Part shown: piece after piece, positions 907-15,058 of the stretch
How positions within the stretch are numbered: the first letter of the stretch is position 1
Layout: each line of letters opens with the position of its first letter
NCBI RefSeq assembly: GCF_000513995.1
Contig: NZ_AZVB01000009.1
Location: forward strand, 62,001-126,000
Source of the DNA: Pseudoxanthomonas sp. J35
Lineage (GTDB): Bacteria > Pseudomonadota > Gammaproteobacteria > Xanthomonadales > Xanthomonadaceae
Direction of reading: 5' to 3'
DNA length: 64,000 nucleotides
Notes under the pieces: generated by a model
What the model was told of the DNA's origin: nothing
The model's database searches: none
Seen by the model: the letters and a program-made list of their open reading frames with translations, nothing else
Translations under genes and position numbers: made by a program

Positions 907-936
907 GGCTTGAAACCCCCGCCGACAACCGCATCT
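907..936 (+). promoter_or_regulatory. Sigma-32 (RpoH) type heat-shock promoter of clpB
   Basis: The sequence shows GGCTTGAAA, then a 13-bp spacer from the end of CTTGAAA, then CCGCATCT. This matches the E. coli heat-shock consensus (CTTGAAA and CCCCATNT) at every defined position but one, with an accepted spacing. It ends about 48 bases before the clpB ATG. ClpB is a classical RpoH target, so position and motif agree. Confidence 0.8.
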
Positions 937-984
937 GGAGGATATCGCCGGCGTGGCCGGCCACCACCTTCGGGGGACCAATCG

Positions 985-3570
<2,586 letters not shown>

Positions 3571-3579
3571 GCTGACGAT

Positions 3580-3607
3580 GCCCGCGCTACCAGCGCGGGC
3601 CTTTCTC
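3580..3607 (+). terminator. Rho-independent terminator of clpB
   Basis: A 9-bp GC-rich stem (GCCCGCGCT with AGCGCGGGC), a three-base loop and a CTTTCT tail lie ten bases after the clpB stop. Confidence 0.85.
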
Positions 3608-3665
3608 CGGGCCGGGCGGGATCACGTTCATTGAAACCCTGCCCAAGAAGCTGGAGCTTCAGCGC

Positions 3666-3856
3666 GGCTCGCTCCGGAAGGAGCCGCGGCACTCCGGGGG
3701 TATGGCGCATCGCGCGGTTCCGCGTCCTGCTCCAACGCGCGAGCGCGGCACATCCATGTGCCGCTTGCGCCATGCCCCCGGAGCGCCACGTCTTCCAGCA
3801 CGTCAAGGACGTGGCTTCGATCGGTCCTTCCCCGGAAGGGGTAGAGAGGAGGGCGG
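3666..3856 (+). repeat. Structured intergenic repeat, copy A (near complete)
   Basis: This element fills much of the 490-bp gap between clpB and dps and recurs at 14385-14586. In order it shows a small hairpin with a GGAA loop (3671-3684), an outer 18-bp helix (3692-3709 with 3766-3783, one G-T wobble), and inside it two hairpins: CGCGCG with CGCGCG (3711-3716, 3736-3741) and GCGGCACAT with ATGTGCCGC (3745-3764). A conserved 3' part follows, containing GTCTTC, GTGGCTTCG and GGGGTAG. Comparison with copy C shows paired changes that keep the inner helices. I do not recognise the family, and no open reading frame in it looks coding. Confidence 0.8.
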
Positions 3857-3919
3857 CCATCCGCCGGAGCCCGCGTAAGACGCAAGGACGCATCGGGGGC
3901 AATGCCGCCCACCTTCACG

Positions 3920-3960
3920 GATGCGCCGAACCTTGCGCTGCCGCGGCTCCGCCCGAAGCG
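3920..3960 (-). repeat. Degenerate inverted fragment of the structured repeat (copy D)
   Basis: Read on the minus strand, 3950-3935 is identical over 16 bases to copy B (GGAGCCGCGGCAGCGC). After seven diverged bases, GGCGCATC matches again. The GCTTC/GGAGC hairpin upstream is also recognisable. The rest of the element is missing. Confidence 0.6.
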
Positions 3961-4008
3961 CGCCACGCCCTGGGCCGTTGCTCTCGGAACCAGCTCGCGG
4001 GAGCGCCC

Positions 4009-4036
4009 AAAGAAACGGCCGCCCTGCGGCGGCCGT
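4009..4036 (-). terminator. Rho-independent terminator of dps
   Basis: On the minus strand a 9-bp stem (ACGGCCGCC with GGCGGCCGT), a four-base loop and a TTTCTTT tail lie about 25 bases after the dps stop. Confidence 0.85.
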
Positions 4037-4060
4037 CGTGGTGTCACGGGAGAGCCTGCT

Positions 4061-4621
4061 TCACTCCAGCAGCGAACGCAGCATCCACGCGTACTTCTCG
4101 TGGGTCTGCAGGCGCTGGGTCAGCAGGTCGACGGTCGGGTCGTCGCCGGCGTCGTCGGCGGTCTTCAGCACGGTGCGCGCGGTGCGGCACACCGCCTCGT
4201 TGCCGGCGACCAGCTGCTGGACCATGCCCTTCCAGTCGGGCACGCCGTCCGCGCCTTCCTCCTCGCGGATCGAGGTCAGGCGGATGAATTCCGCGTACGA
4301 ACCGGGCGCGTTGTAACCCAGCGCGCGGATGCGCTCGGCGACGTCGTCCAGCGCGTTCCACTGCTCGGTGTACTGGTCCATGAACATCGCGTGCAGCGAA
4401 TTGAACATCGAACCGGTGACGTTCCAGTGGAAGTTGTGGGTCTTCAGGTACAGGGTGAAGGCATCGGACAGGAAGTGGGCGAGGCCCTCGGCGATCTCCT
4501 TGCGGTCGTCGTCGGCGATGCCGATGTTGATCCTCGAAGGCGAGGCGACCTGGTCCAGGACCTTGCCCTTGCCCTTCGGGGCGGCTGCCTTGTCCTTGAT
4601 GGTGGTCTTGGTCTTGGCCAT
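4061..4621 (-). CDS. dps: Dps-family DNA-binding ferritin
   Basis: A 12-subunit miniferritin that oxidises and stores iron, using peroxide as oxidant, and protects DNA in starvation and oxidative stress. The 186 residues carry the Dps signature THNFHWNVTG (61-70) followed by LHAMF, with the expected inter-subunit ferroxidase ligands His65, His77, Asp92 and Glu96. The first 25 residues are rich in Lys and Ala, the type of flexible tail that binds DNA in E. coli Dps. The start is the ATG of MAKTKTTIKD; the frame continues upstream but without similarity. It is divergent from hrpA across a 99-bp AT-richer gap that should hold both promoters; I cannot place a convincing -35/-10 pair there. Confidence 0.95.
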   Translation of the reverse strand: MAKTKTTIKDKAAAPKGKGKVLDQVASPSRINIGIADDDRKEIAEGLAHFLSDAFTLYLKTHNFHWNVTGSMFNSLHAMFMDQYTEQWNALDDVAERIRALGYNAPGSYAEFIRLTSIREEEGADGVPDWKGMVQQLVAGNEAVCRTARTVLKTADDAGDDPTVDLLTQRLQTHEKYAWMLRSLLE

Positions 4622-4720
4622 GAACGGGCTCCTTGGCTGGGGTCTACAGGGTGCAGATGGGGCTGTCACAATAGATGTTAAACCCCGCAGCGTTATGCAA
4701 AGTTTCACACGGCCCGATAG

Positions 4721-7700
4721 ATGGAAGCGATCCCCGCCGAATTTCGAGCAGCCCTGGAAGCCGGCCGGCGCGGCATCGACCAGGCCCTGAGCCGCGACCG
4801 CGGGCGCCTGCACGGCGCCTGGTCGCGCTGGCGTGGGCGTCCGGCCGATGCCGCCCTGCGCGAACGCTTCGAGCAGGCCCTGGCCGGCTCGGTGGCGGCC
4901 CGCCAGGCGCGCGCTGACAGCGTCCCGGCGGTGCAGGTGGACGCTGCGCTGCCGATCGCCGCCGAGGCCGAGCGCATCGTCGCCCTGATCCGCGAGCACC
5001 CCGTGGCGGTGGTGGCCGGCGAGACCGGCTCGGGCAAGACCACCCAGCTGCCCAAGCTGTGCCTGGCCGCCGGCCGCGGCGTGGCCGGCACCATCGGCTG
5101 CACCCAGCCGCGCCGCATCGCCGCCCGCGCGGTGGCCGCGCGCGTGGCCGAGGAGCTGAAGACCCCGCTGGGAGGCCAGGTCGGCTACCAGGTGCGCTTC
5201 ACCGACAACGTCGGCGAGGACACCCGGATCAAGTTCATGACCGACGGCATCCTGCTGGCCGAGATCGCATCGGACCGCTGGCTGTCGGCGTACGACACGA
5301 TCATCGTCGACGAGGCCCACGAGCGCAGCCTCAACATCGACTTCCTGCTCGGCTACCTCAAGCAGCTGCTGCGCAGGCGCCGCGACCTCAAGGTCATCGT
5401 CACCTCGGCGACCATCGACACCGCCCGCTTCGCCAGGCACTTCGGCGACGCGCCGGTGGTCGAGGTGGCCGGCCGCACCTACCCGGTCGAGGTCCGCTAC
5501 CGGCCGCCGGGCGGCGGGGGTGGCGACGCGCCGGAGCCGGTACCGGCCGCGCCCGGCCGCGGCGCGCGCGGAGGTCGCCCGCGTCGTGAACCGGACCCGG
5601 GACGCGAGCTGGACCCGCTGGCCGCGATCGGCGCCGCGGTGGACGAGATCACCGCCGAGGACCCGCGCGGCGACGTGCTGGTGTTCCTGCCCGGCGAGCG
5701 CGAGATCCGCGACCTGCACCGGCTGCTGGAGAAGCGCCAGTACCGCTCCACCGAGGTGCTGCCGCTGTACGCGCGGCTGTCGGCCAGGGACCAGGACCGG
5801 GTGTTCAACCCCGGCCCGCAGCGGCGCATCGTCCTGGCGACCAACGTCGCCGAGACCTCGCTGACGGTGCCGCGGATCCGCTACGTCATCGACCCGGGCG
5901 AGGCGCGGATCAAGCGCTACAGCCCGCGCTCGAAGATCGACCGCCTGCACGTGGAACCGGTCAGCCAGGCCAGCGCCAACCAGCGCAAGGGCCGCTGCGG
6001 CCGCGTCTCCGAAGGCGTGTGCTACCGCCTGTACTCGGAGGCGGATTTCCTCTCGCGCCCGGAGTTCACCGACCCGGAGATCCGCCGCTCCAGCCTGGCC
6101 GGCGTGATCCTGCGCATGCTCCACCTGGGCCTGGGCCGGATCGAGGATTTCCCGTTCCTCGAACCGCCGGACGAGCGCGCCATCGCCGATGGCTGGCAGC
6201 AGCTGCTCGAGCTGGGCGCGGTGGAGGAGGCGGCCGACGGCCAGCGCCGCCTGACCGCGATCGGCCGGCAGATGGCGCGCCTGCCGGTGGACGTGAAACT
6301 GTCGCGGATGCTGGTGGCGGCGCAGGCGCATGGCGTGCTGCGCGCCATGCTGCCGATCGCCGCCTTCCTCGGCGTGCAGGACCCACGCGAACGCCCGCCC
6401 GAGGCGCGCGAGGCGGCCGACAACGCCCATGCGCAGTTCGCCGACCCGCGCTCGGAGTTCGTCGGCATCCTGCGCCTGTGGCAGGCCTACGACGACGCCC
6501 ACGGCGAGCTGACCCAGTCGAAGCTGCGCGACTGGTGCGGCAAGCGCTTCCTCGGCTTCCTGCGCATGCGCGAATGGCGCGAGCTGCACCGCCAGCTCAA
6601 GCTGCTGTGCGAGGAACTGGGCTGGCGCGAGGAACCGCAGGAACAGGCGCTGGCGCCGCTGCTGGCCGGCGCGCCAGTGGCGGACGAGGGCCGTGGCGCT
6701 TCCGGCGAGCGGCCGACCCGGGGCGAGCTGCACCGCGCCGCGCGCCTGGCGCGCGAGGGCAAGGCCGCGGCGGTCGCCGCGCCGGCCGGCGCCGGGGGAA
6801 ATACGGGGTCGGAGCCACTTGTCCCCCAGGCGGGCGAAGGCGGGAGGAGGCGATCGGGGAAAAGTGAACCTGACCCCGTTCCTGGCCCCCGCATCAGCGC
6901 CCGCGAGCGTGCCTCCGCCTACCAGTCGCTGCACCGCGCGCTGATCGCCGGCTTGCCGACGCAGCTTGGCCACCGCACCGAGAAGGGCGACTTCCAGGCG
7001 CCGCGGCAGCGCCGCTTCCAGCTGTTCCCGGCCTCGCCGCTGGCGAAGAAGCCGCCGCCGTGGGTGCTGGTCGCGACCCTGCTGGACACGCAGAAGGTCT
7101 GGGGCCTGACCGCCGCGGCGATCGAACCGGACTGGGCCATCGCCGAGCTGCCGCACCTGCTGGCACGCAAGCACTACGACCCGCGCTGGTCGCGCGCGCA
7201 GGGCAACGTGCTGGCCTCCGAACAGATCAGCCTGTTCGGCCTGGTGCTGGCGCCCAGGCGCCCGGTGCACTACGGCCGCATCGACCCGGCCGGTGCGCAC
7301 GACCTGTTCGTGCGCCAGGCGCTGGTCACCGGCGAGATCGACACGAAAGCCGCGTTCCTCGCCGCCAACCTCAAGACCCTGGAACAGGCGCGCGAGGAGG
7401 AAGCCAAGCTGCGCCGCGCCGGCCTGGTCGCCGACGAGGACTGGCAGGCGCGCTGGTACCTGGACCGCGTGCCGGCGGAGATCCACTCGGCCGCCGGCCT
7501 GGACGCCTGGTACCAGAAGCTGGCGTGCGAGAAGCAGCAGGGCTTGCGCTGGTCGACGGTCGACCTGTTGCCCGGCGAAGGCAGCCAGCAGGACCTGTAC
7601 CCGAAGTACTTCCCGCTGGGCGATGCGCGCCTGCCGCTGCACTACAGGTTCGAACCGGGTGCCGCGGACGACGGCGTCACCCTGGAAGTGCCGCTGCCGC

Positions 7701-8986
7701 TGCTCAACGCGCTGGATCCGGCGCGGCTGTCGTGGCTGGCGCCTGGCTTCGTCGCCGACAAGGCCGCCGGTCTGATCCGCAGCCTGCCCAAGGCGATGCG
7801 CCGCAACTACGTGCCGGCGCCGGACTTCGGTCGTGCCTTCTTCGAGGCCTTCCCGCAGCCGTCCGCCGACGCGATCACTGGCGAGCTGGCGCGTTTCCTC
7901 AGCAGGACCACCGGCGCGCAGGTAAGCGCCCTGGACTTCGACGAGGCCGCGCTGGAGCCGCACCTGCGCATGAACCTGCGCCTGCGCGAAGAAGGCCGCA
8001 ACGGCAAGGTGCTGGCCGAGTCGCGCGACCTCGACGGGCTGCGCGCCCGCTTCGGCGAACACGCCAGCCGCGCCTTCGCGGCGCGCGCGGCGAAGGCGCT
8101 GGCCAGCGGCCCGCGCGAGCTGCGCGAGTTCCCGGACGAGCCGCTGCCGCCGCAGGTCACCGGCGACGCCGGCGTGCCCGGCTACCCGGCGCTGGTCGAC
8201 GAGGGCGAGCACGCGGTCATGCGCGTGTTCGCCGACCGGACCGAGGCCGCCGCCGCGCATCCGCGCGGGGTCGAGCGCCTGCTGCGCATCGCCCTGGCCG
8301 ACAAGGCCCGGCAGGCGCGCAAGCAGCTGCCGGTGTCGCCGCGGCTGGGCCTCCTGTACGCGGCGATCGAGCAGTTCGGCCAGGGCCCGGAAGCGAAGGC
8401 GAGGGAGAAGGAACAGCTGCGCACCGACCTGGTCGAGGCCGCGCTCAACGCGGTGCTGGCCGAAGGCCTGGAAGACATCCGCGACCGCGCCGCGTTCCAG
8501 AAACGCGCCGAGGCCGCCGGCCGCGCGCTGTTCGGCGAGGCGATGGCGCGGCTGCAGCTGGCCGAGCAGATCCTCGGCGCGGTGGCCGAACTGAAGCCGA
8601 AGCTCGAGGCGCCACTCATGGGCTGGGCCGGTGCCAACCTCGACGACCTGCGCGCGCAGCTCGATGGCCTGGTGCACCCCGGCTTCCTCCGCCACACGCC
8701 CGCCGCGGCGCTGGCGCAGTTCCCGCGCTGGCTCAAGGGCATGGCCCTGCGCGCCGAACGCGCGCTGCGCGACCCGGCCCGCGACCAGGCGCGGATGCTG
8801 GAGATGAAGCCTTTCACCGACGCGCTGGAACGCGCCCGCGCCGCCGGCAACGGCGATTCGCCGGAATGGCAGGCGCTGCGCTGGGACCTGGAGGAGCTGC
8901 GGATCTCGCTGTTCGCGCAGGAGCTGGGCTCGCGCGGCGGGATCTCGCCGAAGAAGCTGGCCCAGCGCCTGGCAGCGCTGGGCTGA
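4721..8986 (+). CDS. hrpA: ATP-dependent RNA helicase HrpA (DEAH box)
   Basis: A DEAH-box helicase of the HrpA family; the E. coli protein acts on mRNA and resolves stalled ribosomes. Visible motifs are Walker A GETGSGKT (about residue 100), DEAH near 197, SAT in motif III, the C-terminal RecA lobe (LPGEREIRDL, ATNVAETSLT, QRKGRCGR), the helicase-associated domain and the long DUF3418 C-terminal region. At 1421 residues it exceeds the roughly 1300 of E. coli. Two inserts account for much of this: a Gly/Arg/Pro-rich stretch near residues 265-300 and a REP-like DNA insertion translated at about residues 693-721. No Shine-Dalgarno sequence is evident before the ATG. Confidence 0.96.
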   Translation: MEAIPAEFRAALEAGRRGIDQALSRDRGRLHGAWSRWRGRPADAALRERFEQALAGSVAARQARADSVPAVQVDAALPIAAEAERIVALIREHPVAVVAGETGSGKTTQLPKLCLAAGRGVAGTIGCTQPRRIAARAVAARVAEELKTPLGGQVGYQVRFTDNVGEDTRIKFMTDGILLAEIASDRWLSAYDTIIVDEAHERSLNIDFLLGYLKQLLRRRRDLKVIVTSATIDTARFARHFGDAPVVEVAGRTYPVEVRYRPPGGGGGDAPEPVPAAPGRGARGGRPRREPDPGRELDPLAAIGAAVDEITAEDPRGDVLVFLPGEREIRDLHRLLEKRQYRSTEVLPLYARLSARDQDRVFNPGPQRRIVLATNVAETSLTVPRIRYVIDPGEARIKRYSPRSKIDRLHVEPVSQASANQRKGRCGRVSEGVCYRLYSEADFLSRPEFTDPEIRRSSLAGVILRMLHLGLGRIEDFPFLEPPDERAIADGWQQLLELGAVEEAADGQRRLTAIGRQMARLPVDVKLSRMLVAAQAHGVLRAMLPIAAFLGVQDPRERPPEAREAADNAHAQFADPRSEFVGILRLWQAYDDAHGELTQSKLRDWCGKRFLGFLRMREWRELHRQLKLLCEELGWREEPQEQALAPLLAGAPVADEGRGASGERPTRGELHRAARLAREGKAAAVAAPAGAGGNTGSEPLVPQAGEGGRRRSGKSEPDPVPGPRISARERASAYQSLHRALIAGLPTQLGHRTEKGDFQAPRQRRFQLFPASPLAKKPPPWVLVATLLDTQKVWGLTAAAIEPDWAIAELPHLLARKHYDPRWSRAQGNVLASEQISLFGLVLAPRRPVHYGRIDPAGAHDLFVRQALVTGEIDTKAAFLAANLKTLEQAREEEAKLRRAGLVADEDWQARWYLDRVPAEIHSAAGLDAWYQKLACEKQQGLRWSTVDLLPGEGSQQDLYPKYFPLGDARLPLHYRFEPGAADDGVTLEVPLPLLNALDPARLSWLAPGFVADKAAGLIRSLPKAMRRNYVPAPDFGRAFFEAFPQPSADAITGELARFLSRTTGAQVSALDFDEAALEPHLRMNLRLREEGRNGKVLAESRDLDGLRARFGEHASRAFAARAAKALASGPRELREFPDEPLPPQVTGDAGVPGYPALVDEGEHAVMRVFADRTEAAAAHPRGVERLLRIALADKARQARKQLPVSPRLGLLYAAIEQFGQGPEAKAREKEQLRTDLVEAALNAVLAEGLEDIRDRAAFQKRAEAAGRALFGEAMARLQLAEQILGAVAELKPKLEAPLMGWAGANLDDLRAQLDGLVHPGFLRHTPAAALAQFPRWLKGMALRAERALRDPARDQARMLEMKPFTDALERARAAGNGDSPEWQALRWDLEELRISLFAQELGSRGGISPKKLAQRLAALG
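6800..6882. repeat. REP-like inverted-repeat element inserted in hrpA
   Basis: The ends are ACGGGGTCGGAGCCACTT (6803-6820) and, inverted, AAGTGAACCTGACCCCGT (6862-6879), matching at 14 of 18 positions, with about 41 bp between. GGGGTC...CACTT ends of this kind resemble repeats associated with REP-associated tyrosine transposases; that assignment is from memory of the family. The hrpA frame stays open through it, so it is translated as a Gly/Ser/Pro-rich insert between conserved blocks. Confidence 0.6.
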
Positions 8987-9031
8987 CGACGCACCGGTAC
9001 GGCGGCGGTGTCCCGCCGCCGGCGCGGCGGC

Positions 9032-9634
9032 TCACTTGACCCGGCGCACCTTGGCGGGAGTGTTGTAGCCGTCGATGCGCAGGTACCAGACGTTGAACAG
9101 GCCCGGCTTGATCGTCACCGCCGGGTCGGTGCGCTTGACCCCGTCCAGGCGCGCCGGCTCGATCTGTTCCCAGACCTGGCCGTTGGCGAGGGTGTAGGTG
9201 CGGCCCTTGGCGAAGCCGCGGAACTCGCCGACGAGGGTGCTGCGGATCGGCTCGTCGGAACCGAAGTCGAAGAAGCCGCGGCTCTCCTCCTTAACCTCGC
9301 GACGGCCTTCCTCGCGGGCCTGCTCGCGGATCCGCTCGATCTCCGCTGTGTCCAGCGAGGCGGCGCCGGCGACCGCGGGGGCCGCCGTGGCGGCGCCCGG
9401 AGCCGGCTGTCCCTGGGTGGCGACGCCGGCCTGCTGGCGGCGGATCCAGTCCTGCAGCGCGGCCAGTTCTTCGGCGCTCAGCTTGTGCAGGCCGGCGGCA
9501 CGGAATTCCTCCGCGCTCATCTGCTGTTCCAGCGTGGCGGCACCGTCGGACTGGGCCAGCGCGGCGGGCGCGCAGGCGGCCAGCGCGAGCGCGAGCGGCA
9601 GGGTGGACCACAGCGGCAGCGGACGACGTTTCAT
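9032..9634 (-). CDS. Secreted hypothetical protein
   Basis: I do not recognise a named family. The 200-residue product begins with a typical signal sequence (MKRRPLPLW, then a hydrophobic run ending in ALAQ, cleavage after about residue 28), so it is expected in the periplasm or envelope. Cys21 in LAAC could alternatively mark a lipoprotein, but it lies within the hydrophobic run and the following AALAQ favours signal peptidase I. A helical middle part is rich in Glu, Arg and Ala (about 90-120), followed by a compact C-terminal region with FNVWYLRIDGYN. The start is supported by a GGAGGA ribosome site. It is divergent from relA, with 60 bp between. Confidence 0.78.
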   Translation of the reverse strand: MKRRPLPLWSTLPLALALAACAPAALAQSDGAATLEQQMSAEEFRAAGLHKLSAEELAALQDWIRRQQAGVATQGQPAPGAATAAPAVAGAASLDTAEIERIREQAREEGRREVKEESRGFFDFGSDEPIRSTLVGEFRGFAKGRTYTLANGQVWEQIEPARLDGVKRTDPAVTIKPGLFNVWYLRIDGYNTPAKVRRVK

Positions 9635-9694
9635 GCTTGTTCCTCCGGTACGTTGGCCGCTAGTGTAGTCGCAACCCCACGCGCCGGAACGGCC

Positions 9695-11860
9695 TTGTCT
9701 CGCCCTGCCATCGACGGTCTGCCTGCCCTGCTGCGGGGTCCGGTTGCGGACCCGCTGTCCGCCGCGCTGCGCGCGCTGTTGCTGGACGCCTGGGAAGCCG
9801 TCGCCGACCGCACGCAGCGTTCGTCGTGGCCGGTGATCGCCGATACCCTGCAGACGCTCGAACGCCTCGACGCGGACGAGTCGGCGCTGCTGGCCGCGCT
9901 GCTGTTCGAGCTGCCCGGCCTGCGCGCGGCGGTGGCCGCGCGCGTCGCCGCCAGCCATCCGGCGGTGGCCGGCCTGCTCGACGGCCAGGACGCGGCCGAC
10001 CAGGTCTGGGCGCTGCACGCCGGCCGCGAGGCCGGGCGCAATGGCGAGGGCCTGCGCCGGCTGTTGCTGGCCATCGTCCAGGACCTGCGGGTGGTGCCGA
10101 TCCTGCTGTCGCGGCAGCTGGCGAAGATGCGGGTGGCCGACCGCCTGCCCGACGTCGAACGCCGTGCGCTCGCGCAGCTGACCCGCGACATCCACGCGCC
10201 GCTGGCCAACCGCCTGGGCATCTGGCAGCTGAAGTGGGAGCTGGAGGACCTGGCGTTCCGCTTCCTTGAAGCGGACACCTACCGGCACCTGGCGCGCGAG
10301 CTGGACGAGAGCCGCACCGCGCGCGAGCGCTACATCGAGGCGGTGAAGAAGGAGCTCGGCCGCACCCTGGCCGGACACGGCATCCGCGCCGAGATCAGCG
10401 GCCGCCCGAAGCACATCTACAGCATCTGGCGGAAGATGCAGAAGAAGAACCTGCCGCTGGACCGCCTCTACGACCTGCGCGCGGTGCGGGTGATGGTCGA
10501 CGACGTCGCCGCCTGCTATGCCGCGCTGGGCGTGGTCCACGCCCTGTGGGCGCCGGTGCCCGGCGAGTTCGACGACTACATCGCCCGGCCCAAGCCCAAC
10601 GGCTACAGCTCGCTGCACACCGCGGTGGTCGGCCCGGAAGGGCGCACCCTGGAAGTGCAGATCCGCACCCGCGAGATGCACGAGCAGGCCGAGCTGGGCG
10701 TGGCCGCGCACTGGCGCTACAAGGAGACCGGCGGCAGCGCCGCGGGCAAGGGCGCCGGCCGCGCGTTCGAACGCAAGATCGCCTGGATGCGCCAGCTGCT
10801 GGAGCAGGCCGGCGATGGCCGCGACGAGGGCCTGGCCGGTGCGCTGGACGCCGAGCTGGTCGAGGAACGCGTGTACGCGCTGACCCCGAAGGGCGAGGTG
10901 GTCGACCTGCCGCAGGGCGCCACGCCGCTGGACTTCGCCTACCACGTGCACACCATGGTCGGGCACCGCTACCGCGGGGCCAAGGTCAACGGCCGCATCG
11001 TCCCGCTGGGCTACCGCCTGCGCAGCGGCGACCGGGTCGAGATCCTCACCGGCAAGGAGCCGGACCCCAAGCGCGACTGGCTGCTGCCGGCCAACGGCTA
11101 CCTGGCCAGCGGCCGCTCGCGCGACAAGGTCCGCGCCTGGTTCCACAAGCTGGACCGTTCACGCAACGTCGCCGCCGGCAGGGAAATGCTCGAGCGCGAA
11201 CTCAAGCGCCTGGGCCTGCACCAGGCCGACCTGGTGGCGGTGGCGAAGAAGTTCCACGCCGAGACCGTGGACGACCTGTACATCCAGGTGGCGCTGGGCG
11301 ACGTCGGCCCGCACCAGATCGGCCGCGCCCTGCACGAGCTGTCGCGCGCCGTCGAGCCGGCGCCGGCGGCCGTGCCGCCGCCGCGGGTGCCGCGCCAGGT
11401 GCGGAGGAAGAAGGCCGAGGCCGGCTTCACCGTGCAGGGTGTCGGCAACCTGCTGGTGCAGCTGGCGCGCTGCTGCCAGCCGCTGCCGGGCGAGCCGATC
11501 GCCGGCTACCTGACCCGCACCCGGGGCGTCACCGTGCACCGCGCCGACTGCGCCGCCTTCGCGCGCCTGGCCGCCGCGCAGCCGCAGCGGGTGCTGCCGG
11601 TGGAGTGGGGCCACGGCGGGGGCGGCTACGAAGTCGACGTGGAAGTGGACGGCGTCGACCGCAAGTGGCTGCTCAAGGATGTGACCACGCTGATCGCCCA
11701 GGAGGACGCGCACGTGTCCGACATCCGCAGCGAACTGGGCGACAGCGGCCGGGTCCGCCTGCGCCTGCGGCTGCGCGTGACCGACTACGGCCAGCTGTCG
11801 ACCCTGCTGGGCAAGCTCGATGCGCTGCCGGGTGTGGAGCGCGCGTACCGGCTCGGCTGA
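9695..11860 (+). CDS. relA: GTP pyrophosphokinase RelA ((p)ppGpp synthetase I)
   Basis: The ribosome-associated enzyme that makes (p)ppGpp from ATP and GDP/GTP during amino-acid starvation. Domains in order are an N-terminal pseudo-hydrolase domain lacking the HD motif, the synthetase domain with EFDD near residue 291 (the ExDD signature of monofunctional RelA), a TGS domain (VYALTPKGEVVDLPQG), a zinc-finger-like RCCQPLPGE segment, and a C-terminal ACT/RRM domain. I choose the TTG at 9695 (protein MSRPAIDGLPALL, 721 residues, close to E. coli's 744) because GGAA sits six bases upstream and no ATG or GTG is available. The frame extends upstream to 9008 but there runs antisense to the secreted-protein gene. 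Confidence 0.93.
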   Translation: MSRPAIDGLPALLRGPVADPLSAALRALLLDAWEAVADRTQRSSWPVIADTLQTLERLDADESALLAALLFELPGLRAAVAARVAASHPAVAGLLDGQDAADQVWALHAGREAGRNGEGLRRLLLAIVQDLRVVPILLSRQLAKMRVADRLPDVERRALAQLTRDIHAPLANRLGIWQLKWELEDLAFRFLEADTYRHLARELDESRTARERYIEAVKKELGRTLAGHGIRAEISGRPKHIYSIWRKMQKKNLPLDRLYDLRAVRVMVDDVAACYAALGVVHALWAPVPGEFDDYIARPKPNGYSSLHTAVVGPEGRTLEVQIRTREMHEQAELGVAAHWRYKETGGSAAGKGAGRAFERKIAWMRQLLEQAGDGRDEGLAGALDAELVEERVYALTPKGEVVDLPQGATPLDFAYHVHTMVGHRYRGAKVNGRIVPLGYRLRSGDRVEILTGKEPDPKRDWLLPANGYLASGRSRDKVRAWFHKLDRSRNVAAGREMLERELKRLGLHQADLVAVAKKFHAETVDDLYIQVALGDVGPHQIGRALHELSRAVEPAPAAVPPPRVPRQVRRKKAEAGFTVQGVGNLLVQLARCCQPLPGEPIAGYLTRTRGVTVHRADCAAFARLAAAQPQRVLPVEWGHGGGGYEVDVEVDGVDRKWLLKDVTTLIAQEDAHVSDIRSELGDSGRVRLRLRLRVTDYGQLSTLLGKLDALPGVERAYRLG

Positions 11861-11913
11861 ACGGAGTCAATGGAATGGCGGCGAACGGCGCATGTCGACG
11901 TGGCATTTCCGGT

Positions 11914-11940
11914 TTGCCGTTCACCGGTGGCTGGCATAAC
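11914..11940 (+). promoter_or_regulatory. Candidate spoT promoter
   Basis: TTGCCG, a 15-bp spacer and CATAAC lie just before spoT. The -10 matches four of six bases and the spacer is short, so this is weak evidence. Confidence 0.3.
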
Positions 11941-11948
11941 CTCTGCAC

Positions 11949-14120
11949 ATGAATACCGGCCTTTCCGCCCACGCAGTCGACAGCGCTCCGCCGTCCGCCG
12001 GCGAGCCCCTGCCCGACTACGTCCTGGAGCTGGAACGGGCGGCCTCCTACCTGCCGCGCGAGCAGCTGCCGCTGCTGCGCGAGGCCTGGCGGGTGGGCGC
12101 GATCGCCCACGCCGGGCAGACCCGCAAGTCCGGCGAGCCGTACATCACCCACCCGGTGGCGGTGGCCGGCGTGCTGGCCGAGCTGGGCCTGGACGTGGAG
12201 ACGCTGATCGCGGCGATCCTGCACGACACCATCGAGGACACGCCGCTGACCCGCGAGGAGCTGGCGGCGCAGTTCGGCGAGGACGTGGCCGAGCTGGTCG
12301 ACGGCGTCACCAAGCTGGACAAGCTGAAGTTCCGCGACCGCCAGGAGGCGGCCGCCGAGAGCTTCCGCAAGATGCTGCTGGCCATGTCGCGCGACCTGCG
12401 CGTGATCATGATCAAGCTGGCCGACCGCCTGCACAACATGCGCACGCTCGGCGCGCAGAGCCGCGAGGCGCGTGTCCGCATTGCCCGCGAGACGCTGGAG
12501 ATCTACGCGCCGATCGCGCAGCGGCTGGGCATGAGCCTGGTCAAGTCGGAGCTGCAGAACCTCGGCTTCCGCGCGCTGCACCCGTGGCGCCACGCGATCA
12601 TCGAGAAGCACATCCGCAGCCAGCCGGTGGTGCGCCGCGAGGCGATGGCGCAGGTCGAGGTGAAGCTGTCGCAGGGCCTGGCCCGCGACGGCCTCGAGCA
12701 CCGCCTGGTCAGCCGGATCAAGACGCCCTGGAGCATCTACAACAAGATGCAGGGCGAGGGTAAGAGCTTCGACCAGGTGATGGACGTGTTCGGCTTCCGC
12801 GTGGTGGTGCGGTCGGTGGCCGACTGCTACCGCGCGCTGGGCGTGGTCCATGCGCAGTTCAAGCCGCTGGACGGGCGCTTCCGCGACTTCATCGCCATCC
12901 CCAAGGCCAACGGCTACCAGTCGCTGCACACGGTGCTGTTCGGGCCTTACGGGTCGCCGATCGAGGTGCAGATCCGCACCGAGGAGATGGACCTGATCGC
13001 CGAGCGCGGCATCGCCGCGCACTGGACCTACAAGCACGGCGGCGACAGCCCCAACAGCGCGCAGAGCCGGGCCCACGCCTGGATCGTGGAGCTGATCGAG
13101 TCGCAGCGGGCGGCCGGTTCGTCGCTGGAGTTCCTGGAGAACGTCAAGGTCGACCTGTTCCCGGACGAGGTCTACCTGTTCACGCCGAAGGGGCGGATCC
13201 TGGCGCTGCCGCGCAATTCGACGGCGCTGGACTTCGCCTACGCGGTGCACACCGACGTGGGCAACCAGGCAGTGGCGGCGCGCGTGGACAAGAAGCTGGT
13301 GCCGCTGAAGACCAAGCTGTCCAGCGGGCAGACGGTGGAGATCATCACCGCCAAGTCGGCCGCGCCGAAGCCGCAGTGGCTGGAGTTCGTGGTCACCAGC
13401 AAGGCGCGCACCTCGATCCGCCACCAGCTCAAGCAGCTGGAGCACGAGGACGCGGTGCAGCTGGGCCACCGCATGCTCGACCGTGCGCTGGAGGCGATGG
13501 GCAGTTCGCTGGAGCGGTTGCCGGCCAAGCGCCTGGAGTCGTTCCTGGTCGAGCACCGTTTCCCGCGGCTGGAGGCGTTCCTGGCGGAAGTGGCGCTGGG
13601 CAACTGGATGCCGAGCCAGGCGGCGCAGGCGCTGATGGCCTACGCGGAGCTGCGTGGCGGCGGGCATTCGAAGCATTCGCAGGAAAAGATCCTGATCAAC
13701 GGCACGGAGGGCGGGGTCGTGAGCTTCGCCAACTGCTGCCAGCCGATCCCGGGCGACGAGATCATGGGGTACCACACCTCGGGCAAGGGCGTGGTGGTGC
13801 ACCGGCTGGATTGCCCGAACCTGGCGGAGTTCCGCAAGTCGCCGGAGCGCTGGGTGCCGATCGACTGGGATCCGAACGTGACGGGCGACTACGACACGTC
13901 GCTGATCGTGGACGTGGAGAACCACACCGGCGTGCTGGCGCAGCTGGCGGCGGCGGTGGCGCAGAGCCAGTCGAACATCGAGCGCGTCGACTACCTGGAC
14001 CGCGACATGAACGCGGCGCAGCTGCGCTTCGCCATCCAGGTCCGCGACCGCAACCACCTGGCCGAGGTGATCCGCCGGCTGCGCCGGCTCAACGTGGTGC
14101 AGGCGGTGCGCCGGCAGTAA
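11949..14120 (+). CDS. spoT: Bifunctional (p)ppGpp synthetase/hydrolase SpoT
   Basis: Controls the alarmone level by both hydrolysis and synthesis. The 723 residues carry an intact hydrolase domain (ITHPVAVA, HDTIEDT near residue 92, KLADRLHNMRT), a synthetase domain with RFRDFIAIPK near 310 (the RxKD-like type of bifunctional enzymes, unlike the ExDD of RelA next door), a TGS domain (VYLFTPKGRILALP), a CC/zinc-finger-like region (NCCQPIPGDEI) and an ACT domain. It lies 88 bp after relA in the same direction and is followed by ridA and recG. No Shine-Dalgarno sequence precedes the ATG. A CATAAC box ends eight bases before it, so transcription may start very near the start codon. Confidence 0.97.
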   Translation: MNTGLSAHAVDSAPPSAGEPLPDYVLELERAASYLPREQLPLLREAWRVGAIAHAGQTRKSGEPYITHPVAVAGVLAELGLDVETLIAAILHDTIEDTPLTREELAAQFGEDVAELVDGVTKLDKLKFRDRQEAAAESFRKMLLAMSRDLRVIMIKLADRLHNMRTLGAQSREARVRIARETLEIYAPIAQRLGMSLVKSELQNLGFRALHPWRHAIIEKHIRSQPVVRREAMAQVEVKLSQGLARDGLEHRLVSRIKTPWSIYNKMQGEGKSFDQVMDVFGFRVVVRSVADCYRALGVVHAQFKPLDGRFRDFIAIPKANGYQSLHTVLFGPYGSPIEVQIRTEEMDLIAERGIAAHWTYKHGGDSPNSAQSRAHAWIVELIESQRAAGSSLEFLENVKVDLFPDEVYLFTPKGRILALPRNSTALDFAYAVHTDVGNQAVAARVDKKLVPLKTKLSSGQTVEIITAKSAAPKPQWLEFVVTSKARTSIRHQLKQLEHEDAVQLGHRMLDRALEAMGSSLERLPAKRLESFLVEHRFPRLEAFLAEVALGNWMPSQAAQALMAYAELRGGGHSKHSQEKILINGTEGGVVSFANCCQPIPGDEIMGYHTSGKGVVVHRLDCPNLAEFRKSPERWVPIDWDPNVTGDYDTSLIVDVENHTGVLAQLAAAVAQSQSNIERVDYLDRDMNAAQLRFAIQVRDRNHLAEVIRRLRRLNVVQAVRRQ

Positions 14121-14204
14121 GGGGCGCACGGGTTGCGGCGGCGCAACAGCCGGCAGCAACAGCGAAAGCGCAGCAAGAGCACCGGCAACTGCGTTCTGGT
14201 CGCT

Positions 14205-14284
14205 GGCTCCGGATGGAGCCGCGGCAGCGCGGGGGTATGGCGCATCGCGCGGTTCCGCCGTCCATGGCTCCACGCGCGAGCGCA
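14205..14284 (+). repeat. Structured repeat, copy B (3' truncated)
   Basis: This copy begins with a perfect GGCTCC-GGAT-GGAGCC hairpin, then the left strand of the outer helix, then the CGCGCG/CGCGCG hairpin (14246-14251, 14273-14278). It stops after GCAGGCCGC, where the third hairpin and the right strand of the outer helix should follow. The next sequence, 14294-14315, has an unrelated 7-bp hairpin (CGGACGT with ACGTCCG). It lies in the 557-bp gap between spoT and ridA. Confidence 0.75.
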
Positions 14285-14384
14285 GGCCGCGCCGGGAATG
14301 AACACGGACGTTGGCGACGTCCGTCGCGTCGCCACGCGCCAACTACCTGGCCGCTGCGCTGCAGTCTGATGGGTGGAGGGGATC

Positions 14385-14586
14385 GGCTTCGGACGGAGCC
14401 GCGGCACTCCGGGGCATGGCGCATCGGCTGGTGCCGCCATCCATGGCTCCAACAGCCGACCGCAGGCCATCCATGGCCTGCTTGCGCCATATCCCCCCGG
14501 AGCACCGCGTCTTCGGGAGCTTTGAAGTCGTGGCTTCGTTCTTTGCTCCCCTCGCCCTTCATGTGAGGGGTAGGGGGGGAGGGCGG
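14385..14586 (+). repeat. Structured repeat, copy C (near complete)
   Basis: Same order as copy A: GGCTTC-GGAC-GGAGCC hairpin, outer helix (14407-14423 with 14483-14502, eight pairs on each side of a small internal loop), CGGCTG with CAGCCG (14425-14430, 14453-14458), and GCAGGCCAT with ATGGCCTGC (14462-14481). The 3' portion again contains GTCTTC, GTGGCTTCG and GGGGTAG before a G-rich end. It is a direct repeat of copy B about 180 bp downstream. No coding potential is seen in the gap from spoT to ridA apart from these repeats and the ridA promoter. Confidence 0.8.
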
Positions 14587-14677: not shown

Positions 14678-15058
14678 ATGTCCCAGATCATCCAGACCGA
14701 CAAGGCGCCGGCGGCGATCGGCCCGTATTCGCAGGCCGTGCGCAGCGGCAACACGGTGTATTTCTCCGGGCAGATCCCGCTGGTCCCGGCGACCGGCGAG
14801 GTCGTGGAAGGCGACATCACCGCGCAGGCGCGGCAGGTGTTCGACAACCTGCGCGCGGTGGCCGAGGCGGCCGGCGGTTCGCTGGACCGGATCGTGCGCC
14901 TGGGCCTGTACCTGACCGACCTGTCGCAGTTCGCCGCGGTCAACGCGGTGATGCAGGAATACTTCTCGGCGCCGTTCCCGGCGCGTTCGACCATCGAGGT
15001 CTCCGGCCTGCCGAAGGGCGTGGGCTTCGAGGCCGACGCCATCATGGTCCTGGACTGA
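14678..15058 (+). CDS. ridA: RidA family enamine/imine deaminase
   Basis: Hydrolyses reactive 2-aminoacrylate and related imines released by PLP enzymes such as threonine dehydratase, preventing damage in the cytosol. The 126 residues are full length for the YjgF/YER057c/UK114 trimer. Visible conserved parts are AIGPYSQAV near the N-terminus, the GQIPL turn and the catalytic-arginine segment FPARSTIEVSGLPKG near residue 105. The start is the ATG of MSQIIQTDKA with CGGAG upstream. Its place between spoT and recG matches the order known in xanthomonads; whether the three share a transcript is unclear because the repeat-bearing gap separates spoT from ridA. Confidence 0.95.
   Translation: MSQIIQTDKAPAAIGPYSQAVRSGNTVYFSGQIPLVPATGEVVEGDITAQARQVFDNLRAVAEAAGGSLDRIVRLGLYLTDLSQFAAVNAVMQEYFSAPFPARSTIEVSGLPKGVGFEADAIMVLD

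Follow-up and report, generated by a model that had tools for sequence, protein, structure and literature searches.

What kind of element recurs with the same three-helix fold in two intergenic gaps of Pseudoxanthomonas sp. J35, and is it read as DNA or as RNA? The stretch analysed here, hereafter the window, comprises 64,000 nucleotides (contig NZ_AZVB01000009.1, positions 62,001 to 126,000). A preliminary description, made from its letters, had recognised three copies, A in the first gap and B and C in the second, as an element not known to it, and had offered two interpretations, a small or leader RNA and a mobile DNA element with structured ends. We are highly confident that the copies belong to a dispersed structured DNA repeat and this repeat is probably of the same structural kind as the candidate RNA TwoAYGGAY, the fold of which would be formed by the complementary strand. 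The reading that we prefer goes further and describes a non-autonomous repeat of the Lysobacteraceae, similar to repetitive extragenic palindromes (REPs) and to the bacterial interspersed mosaic elements (BIMEs) that these form, with a complementary strand that is of TwoAYGGAY type and possibly binds RsmA; to this whole chain we give a probability of roughly 0.4.

Fold, copy number and covariation

The unit of the repeat, here called a module, has a core of approximately 120 bp, in which a 5' hairpin is followed by a long stem; this stem closes a three-way junction from which two further hairpins, H2 and H3, branch off. Both copy A and copy C were predicted to fold into the three-way junction (z scores of -6.8 and -5.3, respectively), and for each copy none of 200 dinucleotide shuffles was as stable; the 5' hairpin was predicted in A and was replaced by an alternative outer pairing in C, of which a 141-base stretch was folded. 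In an alignment of 40 copies, from which one rearranged (L045) and one inverted copy (L041) were left out, 95.7% of the cells pair and 25 of the 43 pairs have changed on both sides. The covariation score of this alignment was 0.269 as against 0.099 in shuffles, none of 500 shuffles reached it, and sliding the 3' partners by one to three columns brought it down to 0.048 or less. With a more diverse set of 49 copies (47 distinct), 35 of the 43 pairs were changed on both sides and the score rose to 0.545 (0.156 when shuffled, at most 0.079 when slid), this alignment having been fitted to the model and thus leaning towards it.

Copy A alone matches 46 places in the 3.24-Mb genome by blastn, itself included, and the fold family is therefore not a product of chance. 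A covariance model built from the 40 copies (R1) gave at least 86 matches at E≤0.001 in this genome, 66 of them with 50 bits or more; as one of these is the opposite-strand match of a place already counted, there are at least 65 modules, a total that is a lower bound with 150 of 5934 candidates scored. Sixteen of the 20 weaker matches are opposite strands of the same palindromes. Among the 16 other Pseudoxanthomonas genomes, at least 14 hold R1 matches, from 3 to 60 each, and G010 and G011 gave none among the 60 candidates scored per genome. Using a broader model (R2), with 18 candidates scored in each genome, the fold was found in at least 50 of the 198 family genomes, which represent at least 18 of 54 genera. 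In a sample of 274 genomes from the class, with 13 candidates scored in each, it was found in two, both of them Pseudoxanthomonas. One weaker match lies in a different family of the order (G051). In those loci from other genera that were printed, the stem sequences are very different, and the architecture and a CATCC(A)TG-type loop recur.

The preliminary description was thus right in treating A, B and C as one multi-copy element with a conserved three-way junction and strongly paired changes between copies. Two of the tests that it had proposed, a covariance-model search of this genome and its relatives and a test of covariation in a larger alignment, yielded further copies and a signal well above that of shuffles and slid structures. 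Its outer helix indeed encloses the inner two, at a length of 23 pairs in the structure used for the covariation test and not the approximately 17 bp that had been given.

It had also attributed the paired changes to selection for a fold. The pairing itself stands, and selection as its sole cause is too simple an account, since part of the paired change looks less like independent compensatory mutation than like the replacement by alleles common to several copies. In 17 ortholog comparisons at ≥87% identity (out of 20 typed; a duplicate and two comparisons with less than 75% identity were dropped, and L031/L338 is a doubtful ortholog), 31 pairs had a change on one side, 13 had changes on both that preserve the pairing, and one had a two-sided change of another kind. 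Some of the 13 double changes are swaps between H3 alleles that are common in other copies. At such low divergence, 13 double changes would exceed the expectation from independent hits and, since alleles are shared among copies, these data point to conversion between copies or palindrome-templated repair as contributing alongside selection for the fold. It should be noted as a warning that strong covariation in repeats may stem partly from the concerted evolution of palindromes.

Modules have recognisable ends: GCTTCGG, the start consensus, or GCTCCGG stands among the first bases in 35 of the 40 copies, and GGCTTC within the last 20 bases in 34. Two main stem types, exemplified by GGAGCCGCGGCAGCGCGGGGG and GGGGCCGCCGCCCCAAGGGGG, occur side by side in the genome. 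The 12 neighbouring pairs found here, which take up 24 of the 65 modules, are arranged tail-to-tail (eight) or in tandem (four), and never head-to-head. The spacing of pairs is nearly constant in G016, with 96–98 bp between the cores in 7 of 10 pairs (85, 113 and 125 in the others), and at 13 loci of that genome the pair appeared by eye to be a heterodimer of both stem types.

Several further features of the copies were seen. CAACAG/CAACGG-like hexanucleotide tracts of variable length precede the 5' hairpin in many copies of this genome (e.g. L022, L027 and L010), and tandem copies of the 5' hairpin segment often stand upstream of modules in G016. At L041 (1997-2151) the inner part of the module is inverted between the stem arms, and a second copy (C12:34213) shows overlapping blastn matches on both strands. 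GTAG-type hairpin repeats (GTAGAGTCGGGCTTGCCCGACTC and similar, plus an GTAGCCCGGATAAG type) lie between or behind modules at L015 (1752-2033) and in other regions of this genome, as judged by eye, and make these intergenic regions mosaics.

The complementary strand and the TwoAYGGAY family

Relatives of the repeat carry the TwoAYGGAY fold (Rfam RF01731, clan CL00106) on their opposite strand. A relative at L227 was matched on the minus strand of the module with 42.8 bits, the gathering score being 43, and the match at G013:C74:537-658:-, which passes that score with 45.7 bits, is the opposite strand of the R2 match 532-649:+. At E≤0.001, RF01731 was found in 23 of 196 family genomes (in 6 of 196 above the gathering score) and in none of 14 control genomes. 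R2 matches coincide with 13 of 20 such loci, and in all 13 the best RF01731 match is on the opposite strand, with L301 showing a weaker same-strand match as well. RF01731 matches also recur within single Lysobacteraceae genomes, with 12 in G173 (e.g. L293) and 7 in G199 (e.g. L299), some of them with equal scores; the TwoAYGGAY family looks dispersed in these two genomes, too.

In its architecture, the minus strand of the repeat resembles TwoAYGGAY in having a three-way junction and two hairpins with (AY)GGAY loops, that is, two GGA-loop hairpins at one junction on one strand, and gamma-Proteobacteria are among the taxa listed for that RNA in PMC2864571. There are also differences: in the available description, TwoAYGGAY is a probable RNA (human gut, gamma-Proteobacteria, Clostridiales) and not a dispersed tail-to-tail DNA repeat, and the main types of the repeat have a shortened H2 loop, e.g. 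CAGGACG. Where the preliminary description could name no family, an opposite-strand TwoAYGGAY fold can now be put in its place; the window copies themselves fall below the gathering score and for this reason we do not file them as TwoAYGGAY members. MicroRNA and other Rfam families reported in permissive mode scored far under their thresholds and were dismissed as chance matches.

On the minus strand, the H3 loop reads CANGGANG in 154 of 164 rows (one of them with an N base), a set in which the inverted copy of L041 is counted twice. The third base is T in 135 rows, G in 14, A in 2 and C in 2, the seventh is T in 150 and C in 4, and these variable positions coincide with the free positions of the CANGGANG consensus. 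The head of H2 contains GGA in 163 of the 164 rows, which is a weaker test, as a flanking TTGGAGC counts too. Small RNAs that sequester CsrA/RsmA (CsrB/C, RsmV-Z, RsmU) likewise present GGA in hairpin loops on one strand, the CANGGANG consensus included, and two of them, RsmV and RsmW, share clan CL00106 with TwoAYGGAY. The small RNAs other than RsmU are known as discrete RNAs. RsmU itself is a transcript to which RsmA binds, according to PMC7694677, whereas the repeat consists of many dispersed DNA copies. The motif CANGGANG is given as the Rsm motif in PMC6849547, and TwoAYGGAY was proposed to be a CsrA-binding RNA on similar ground in PMC4333381. This genome has one csrA gene; in Xanthomonas, according to PMC7694677, BLAST turned up no counterparts to the CsrB/Rsm RNAs known from elsewhere, but RsmU does bind RsmA.

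On these grounds, we tentatively propose that the GGA strand, when transcribed, is a putative ligand of RsmA/CsrA. Modules lie mostly at gene ends, singly or as tail-to-tail pairs, and copies would spread as DNA with the help of an enzyme. Transcription of the complementary strand would then expose the loops, CANGGANG in H3 and the GGA loop in H2, for binding by RsmA/CsrA, and transcripts of the family may serve as RsmA-binding modules scattered over the genome. Whichever side a tail-to-tail pair is transcribed from, one of its modules would be exposed in the GGA orientation.

Mobility, gene ends and competing explanations

Modules come and go at orthologous sites. Across the genus, one is present at 3 of 16 clpB loci (counting G001, which lacks the ortholog, and G016, which is cut at a contig end) and at 3 of 17 ridA loci, each time in this genome (G000), G003 and G007. 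The spoT-ridA interval measures 557 bp here as against 75–81 bp in four other genomes. The sister genome G003 is 97–98% identical to this one over clpB and ridA; of 38 loci examined here, 19 have their element at a site that is also occupied among 35 loci of G003 (34 of them picked for holding elements), and at three of these common sites the two genomes differ in the number of copies. No coding element was seen between paired modules in the loci examined, and the copies did not turn out to be decayed fragments of one coding transposon, an outcome that the preliminary description had considered. Of the two interpretations it offered, the mobile DNA element with structured ends fits copy number, pairing and turnover.

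REPs and BIMEs (GTAG- and CGTC-tagged), as described in PMC3733652, are similarly short, palindromic, intergenic and of high copy number, form dimers of opposite orientation and mosaics, lie mostly at gene ends and occur in several types per genome. The tail-to-tail pairs and, by eye, the GTAG-type hairpins between the modules of L015 likewise bring several palindromic units of alternating orientation into one intergenic region. By the same account, REPs are single hairpins of 20–40 bp with a GTAG or CGTC tag, whereas the repeat has a three-helix core of about 120 bp with a 5' hairpin; no such tag was identified at its start, and CGTC is found inside some copies. The terminal inverted repeats (TIRs) of TIRYT genes, or TIRtrons, which PMC3733652 describes from the related Stenotrophomonas maltophilia, resemble it in their larger size, in being self-complementary in part and in occurring as families and dimers. 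These were compared by description only, and they differ in that none of 45 loci with a Y1_Tnp match is flanked by our repeat. No description of the repeat was found in the open-access literature searched by topic terms.

A link to RAYT or TIRYT genes as a present-day association was rejected, given that no convincing copy was present at any of 25 Y1_Tnp loci from the genus or of 20 from other genera; the latter yielded just weak matches of 24–32 bits, in two loci. The sole Y1_Tnp match of this genome, L046 (G000:C9:27217-27543, -), has no element copy within 1.5 kb. Y1_Tnp matches are lacking altogether in 7 of the 17 genomes from other genera that bear the element and, within the genus, in G005, which has elements too. 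Other inverted repeats, including several GTAG-type hairpins, flank some Y1 genes of the genus.

Mispairs in the stems bear on the question of the strand. In the 164 rows, the outer stem as read on the + strand has 3475 Watson-Crick cells, 45 G-T, 103 A-C and 99 other, and A-C cells of the + strand are G-U pairs on the minus, or GGA, strand. Counted per genome-pair-state event, there are 32 G-T and 60 A-C in the outer stem (binomial p 0.005) and 42 and 70 in all three junction helices (p 0.01), both tests ignoring relatedness. Taken together, the mispairs favour the minus strand weakly in the junction and the + strand strongly in the 5' hairpin.

That last point is one of several that weigh against a mobile repeat with an RsmA-binding complementary strand: the 5' hairpin has 182 G-T cells versus 8 A-C on the + strand, and H2 taken alone lacks the minus-strand lean, with 8 versus 4 events the other way. 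Wobble is rare whichever strand is read (57 G-T and 118 A-C in approximately 6150 cells of H1–H3), which differs from the stems of typical structured RNA. The window has no Rfam match at threshold, and RF01731 gave none up to E 10 in 3600-4000 and none in the whole genome. Among the 16 modules between tandem genes, the + strand is the sense strand in 12 and the GGA strand in 4; copy A sits past a terminator-like hairpin of clpB, and no promoter-like site was seen in the two gaps of the window. As to mobility, no target duplication could be read at the empty clpB and ridA sites because their boundaries are too rearranged, and no transposase could be named for the repeat in a screen that covered Y1_Tnp (PF01797) alone.

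About as likely as the RsmA-binding reading is that the repeat is a purely selfish miniature DNA element, the hairpins of which would be read as single-stranded or cruciform DNA by a transposase or recombinase, with the loop as its recognition site and with no RNA role for the GGA strand. The scarcity of wobble on either strand, the tail-to-tail units with their near-constant spacing in G016, the turnover at clpB and ridA, the differences in copy number at three sites between 97%-identical relatives and the inverted inner part at L041 would all be expected of such an element, and the strand-specific G-T pairs of the 5' hairpin would suit a hairpin of single-stranded DNA. However, this explanation leaves the match of the loop to the CsrA consensus unaccounted for, and no enzyme for it appeared at the 25 and 20 loci of the Y1_Tnp-only screen.

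Gene context brings in another explanation, in which the repeat is a cis-acting gene-end hairpin that stabilises, terminates or processes incoming mRNAs without RsmA, as described for REPs and for miniature inverted-repeat transposable elements (MITEs). A simple gene caller based on codon usage placed 28 of 50 modules in this genome (from 51 R2 matches) between convergent genes, 16 between tandem and 5 between divergent ones, and left one unassigned; the caller missed a Dps-type gene and filed copy A of the window as tandem, its true setting being convergent. This distribution and the very stable stems speak for a cis role. Against it, a terminator-like hairpin already stands ahead of the module in 5 of 26 head-side intervals, that of copy A among them, compared with 0.2 expected in base shuffles (28 of the 50 modules were chosen, and 26 had a head-side interval of ≤330 bp). 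Furthermore, a conserved T-run behind the stem was not noted, the sites are not kept across the genus and conservation of the loop would not be needed, and we regard this explanation as improbable. In the genome G032, a module has a cobalamin riboswitch (101 bits; L064 1011-1233, -) at a distance of a few hundred bases.

The weakest explanation, a conventional small or leader RNA from the + strand, can draw on a fold that exists on that strand too and on a 5' hairpin that tolerates G-U there alone, but we consider it very improbable, since the outer stem has more A-C than G-U mispairs on the + strand (103 versus 45 cells), the loop motif lies on the minus strand, the window lacks an Rfam match at threshold, the sites are not syntenic across the genus and all 13 overlapping Rfam loci match best on the other strand.

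Copies in the window and their meaning

Copy A has its core at 3671-3790 on the + strand (127 bits with R2), with the 5' hairpin at 3671-3684, the outer stem at 3685-3709 / 3766-3790, H2 at 3710-3742 and H3 at 3745-3764. Seen as inverted repeats, its outer arms extend over 3682-3709 / 3766-3793 (28 nt, 86% complementary) and its third helix over 3745-3753 / 3756-3764; the minus strand has GCGGCACATGGATGTGCCGC in H3 and TCGCGCGTTGGAGCAGGACGCGGAACCGCGCGA in H2. The tail (3791-3819, +) ends with GTGGCTTCG at 3811-3819, which is a 3'-end motif of the family. At 3920-3959 on the minus strand, a weak trace of another, reversed module was detected (model positions 1-41, nhmmer E 0.0025), which forms an inverted repeat. 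The gap is bounded by a clpB-type gene on the 5' side (910-3570, +; Pfam ClpB_D2-small, Clp_N and AAA_2) and by a convergent ferritin-like gene on the 3' side (4061-4621, -; Pfam Ferritin), which we take from its length to be of the Dps type.

The second gap lies between a relA/spoT-type gene (11949-14120, +; Pfam RelA_SpoT, HD_4 and TGS) and a ridA-type gene (14678-15058, +; Pfam Ribonuc_L-PSP). Of module B, only the 5' part is there (14206-14287, +; model positions 1-81), the break falling within H3; its minus-strand loop reads CATGGACG. The sequence that splits it within H3, at 14288-14384 and beginning with GCGCCGGGAATGAAC, also splits the clpB-dps module of G003 (L068, approximately 2280-2350), and this type of sequence, common to both loci, may be another small mobile element. 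Module C is complete, with a core at 14386-14509 on the + strand (101.7 bits with R2) that holds the 5' hairpin, the outer stem, H2 at 14424-14459 and H3 at 14462-14481, and with a tail at 14510-14538 (+) that ends with GTGGCTTCG at 14530-14538. As inverted repeats, its outer arms lie at 14394-14414 / 14495-14515, the second helix at 14424-14440 / 14443-14459 and the third at 14462-14470 / 14473-14481; H3 on the minus strand reads GCAGGCCATGGATGGCCTGC.

An extended form of our preferred reading, in our view unlikely as it stands, is that of a spreading family of putative RsmA/CsrA-binding modules in Lysobacteraceae genomes, in which a miniature mobile repeat would have incorporated a two-loop RsmA site in its palindrome and would carry this site to dozens of gene ends. 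Many of the copies would be tail-to-tail pairs, in which read-through from one side or the other uncovers a GGA-strand module. The copies would then make up a distributed sponge for the global regulator, tunable through copy number, and the TwoAYGGAY RNAs found elsewhere would be its relics or relatives. TwoAYGGAY has been a candidate RNA of unknown role since 2010 and, if it is one strand of a high-copy repeat in at least one family, its sporadic distribution would make sense and it would be easy to test, since a single genome offers dozens of natural variants. Should the GGA strand bind RsmA, post-transcriptional control would have a new source in dispersed repeats.

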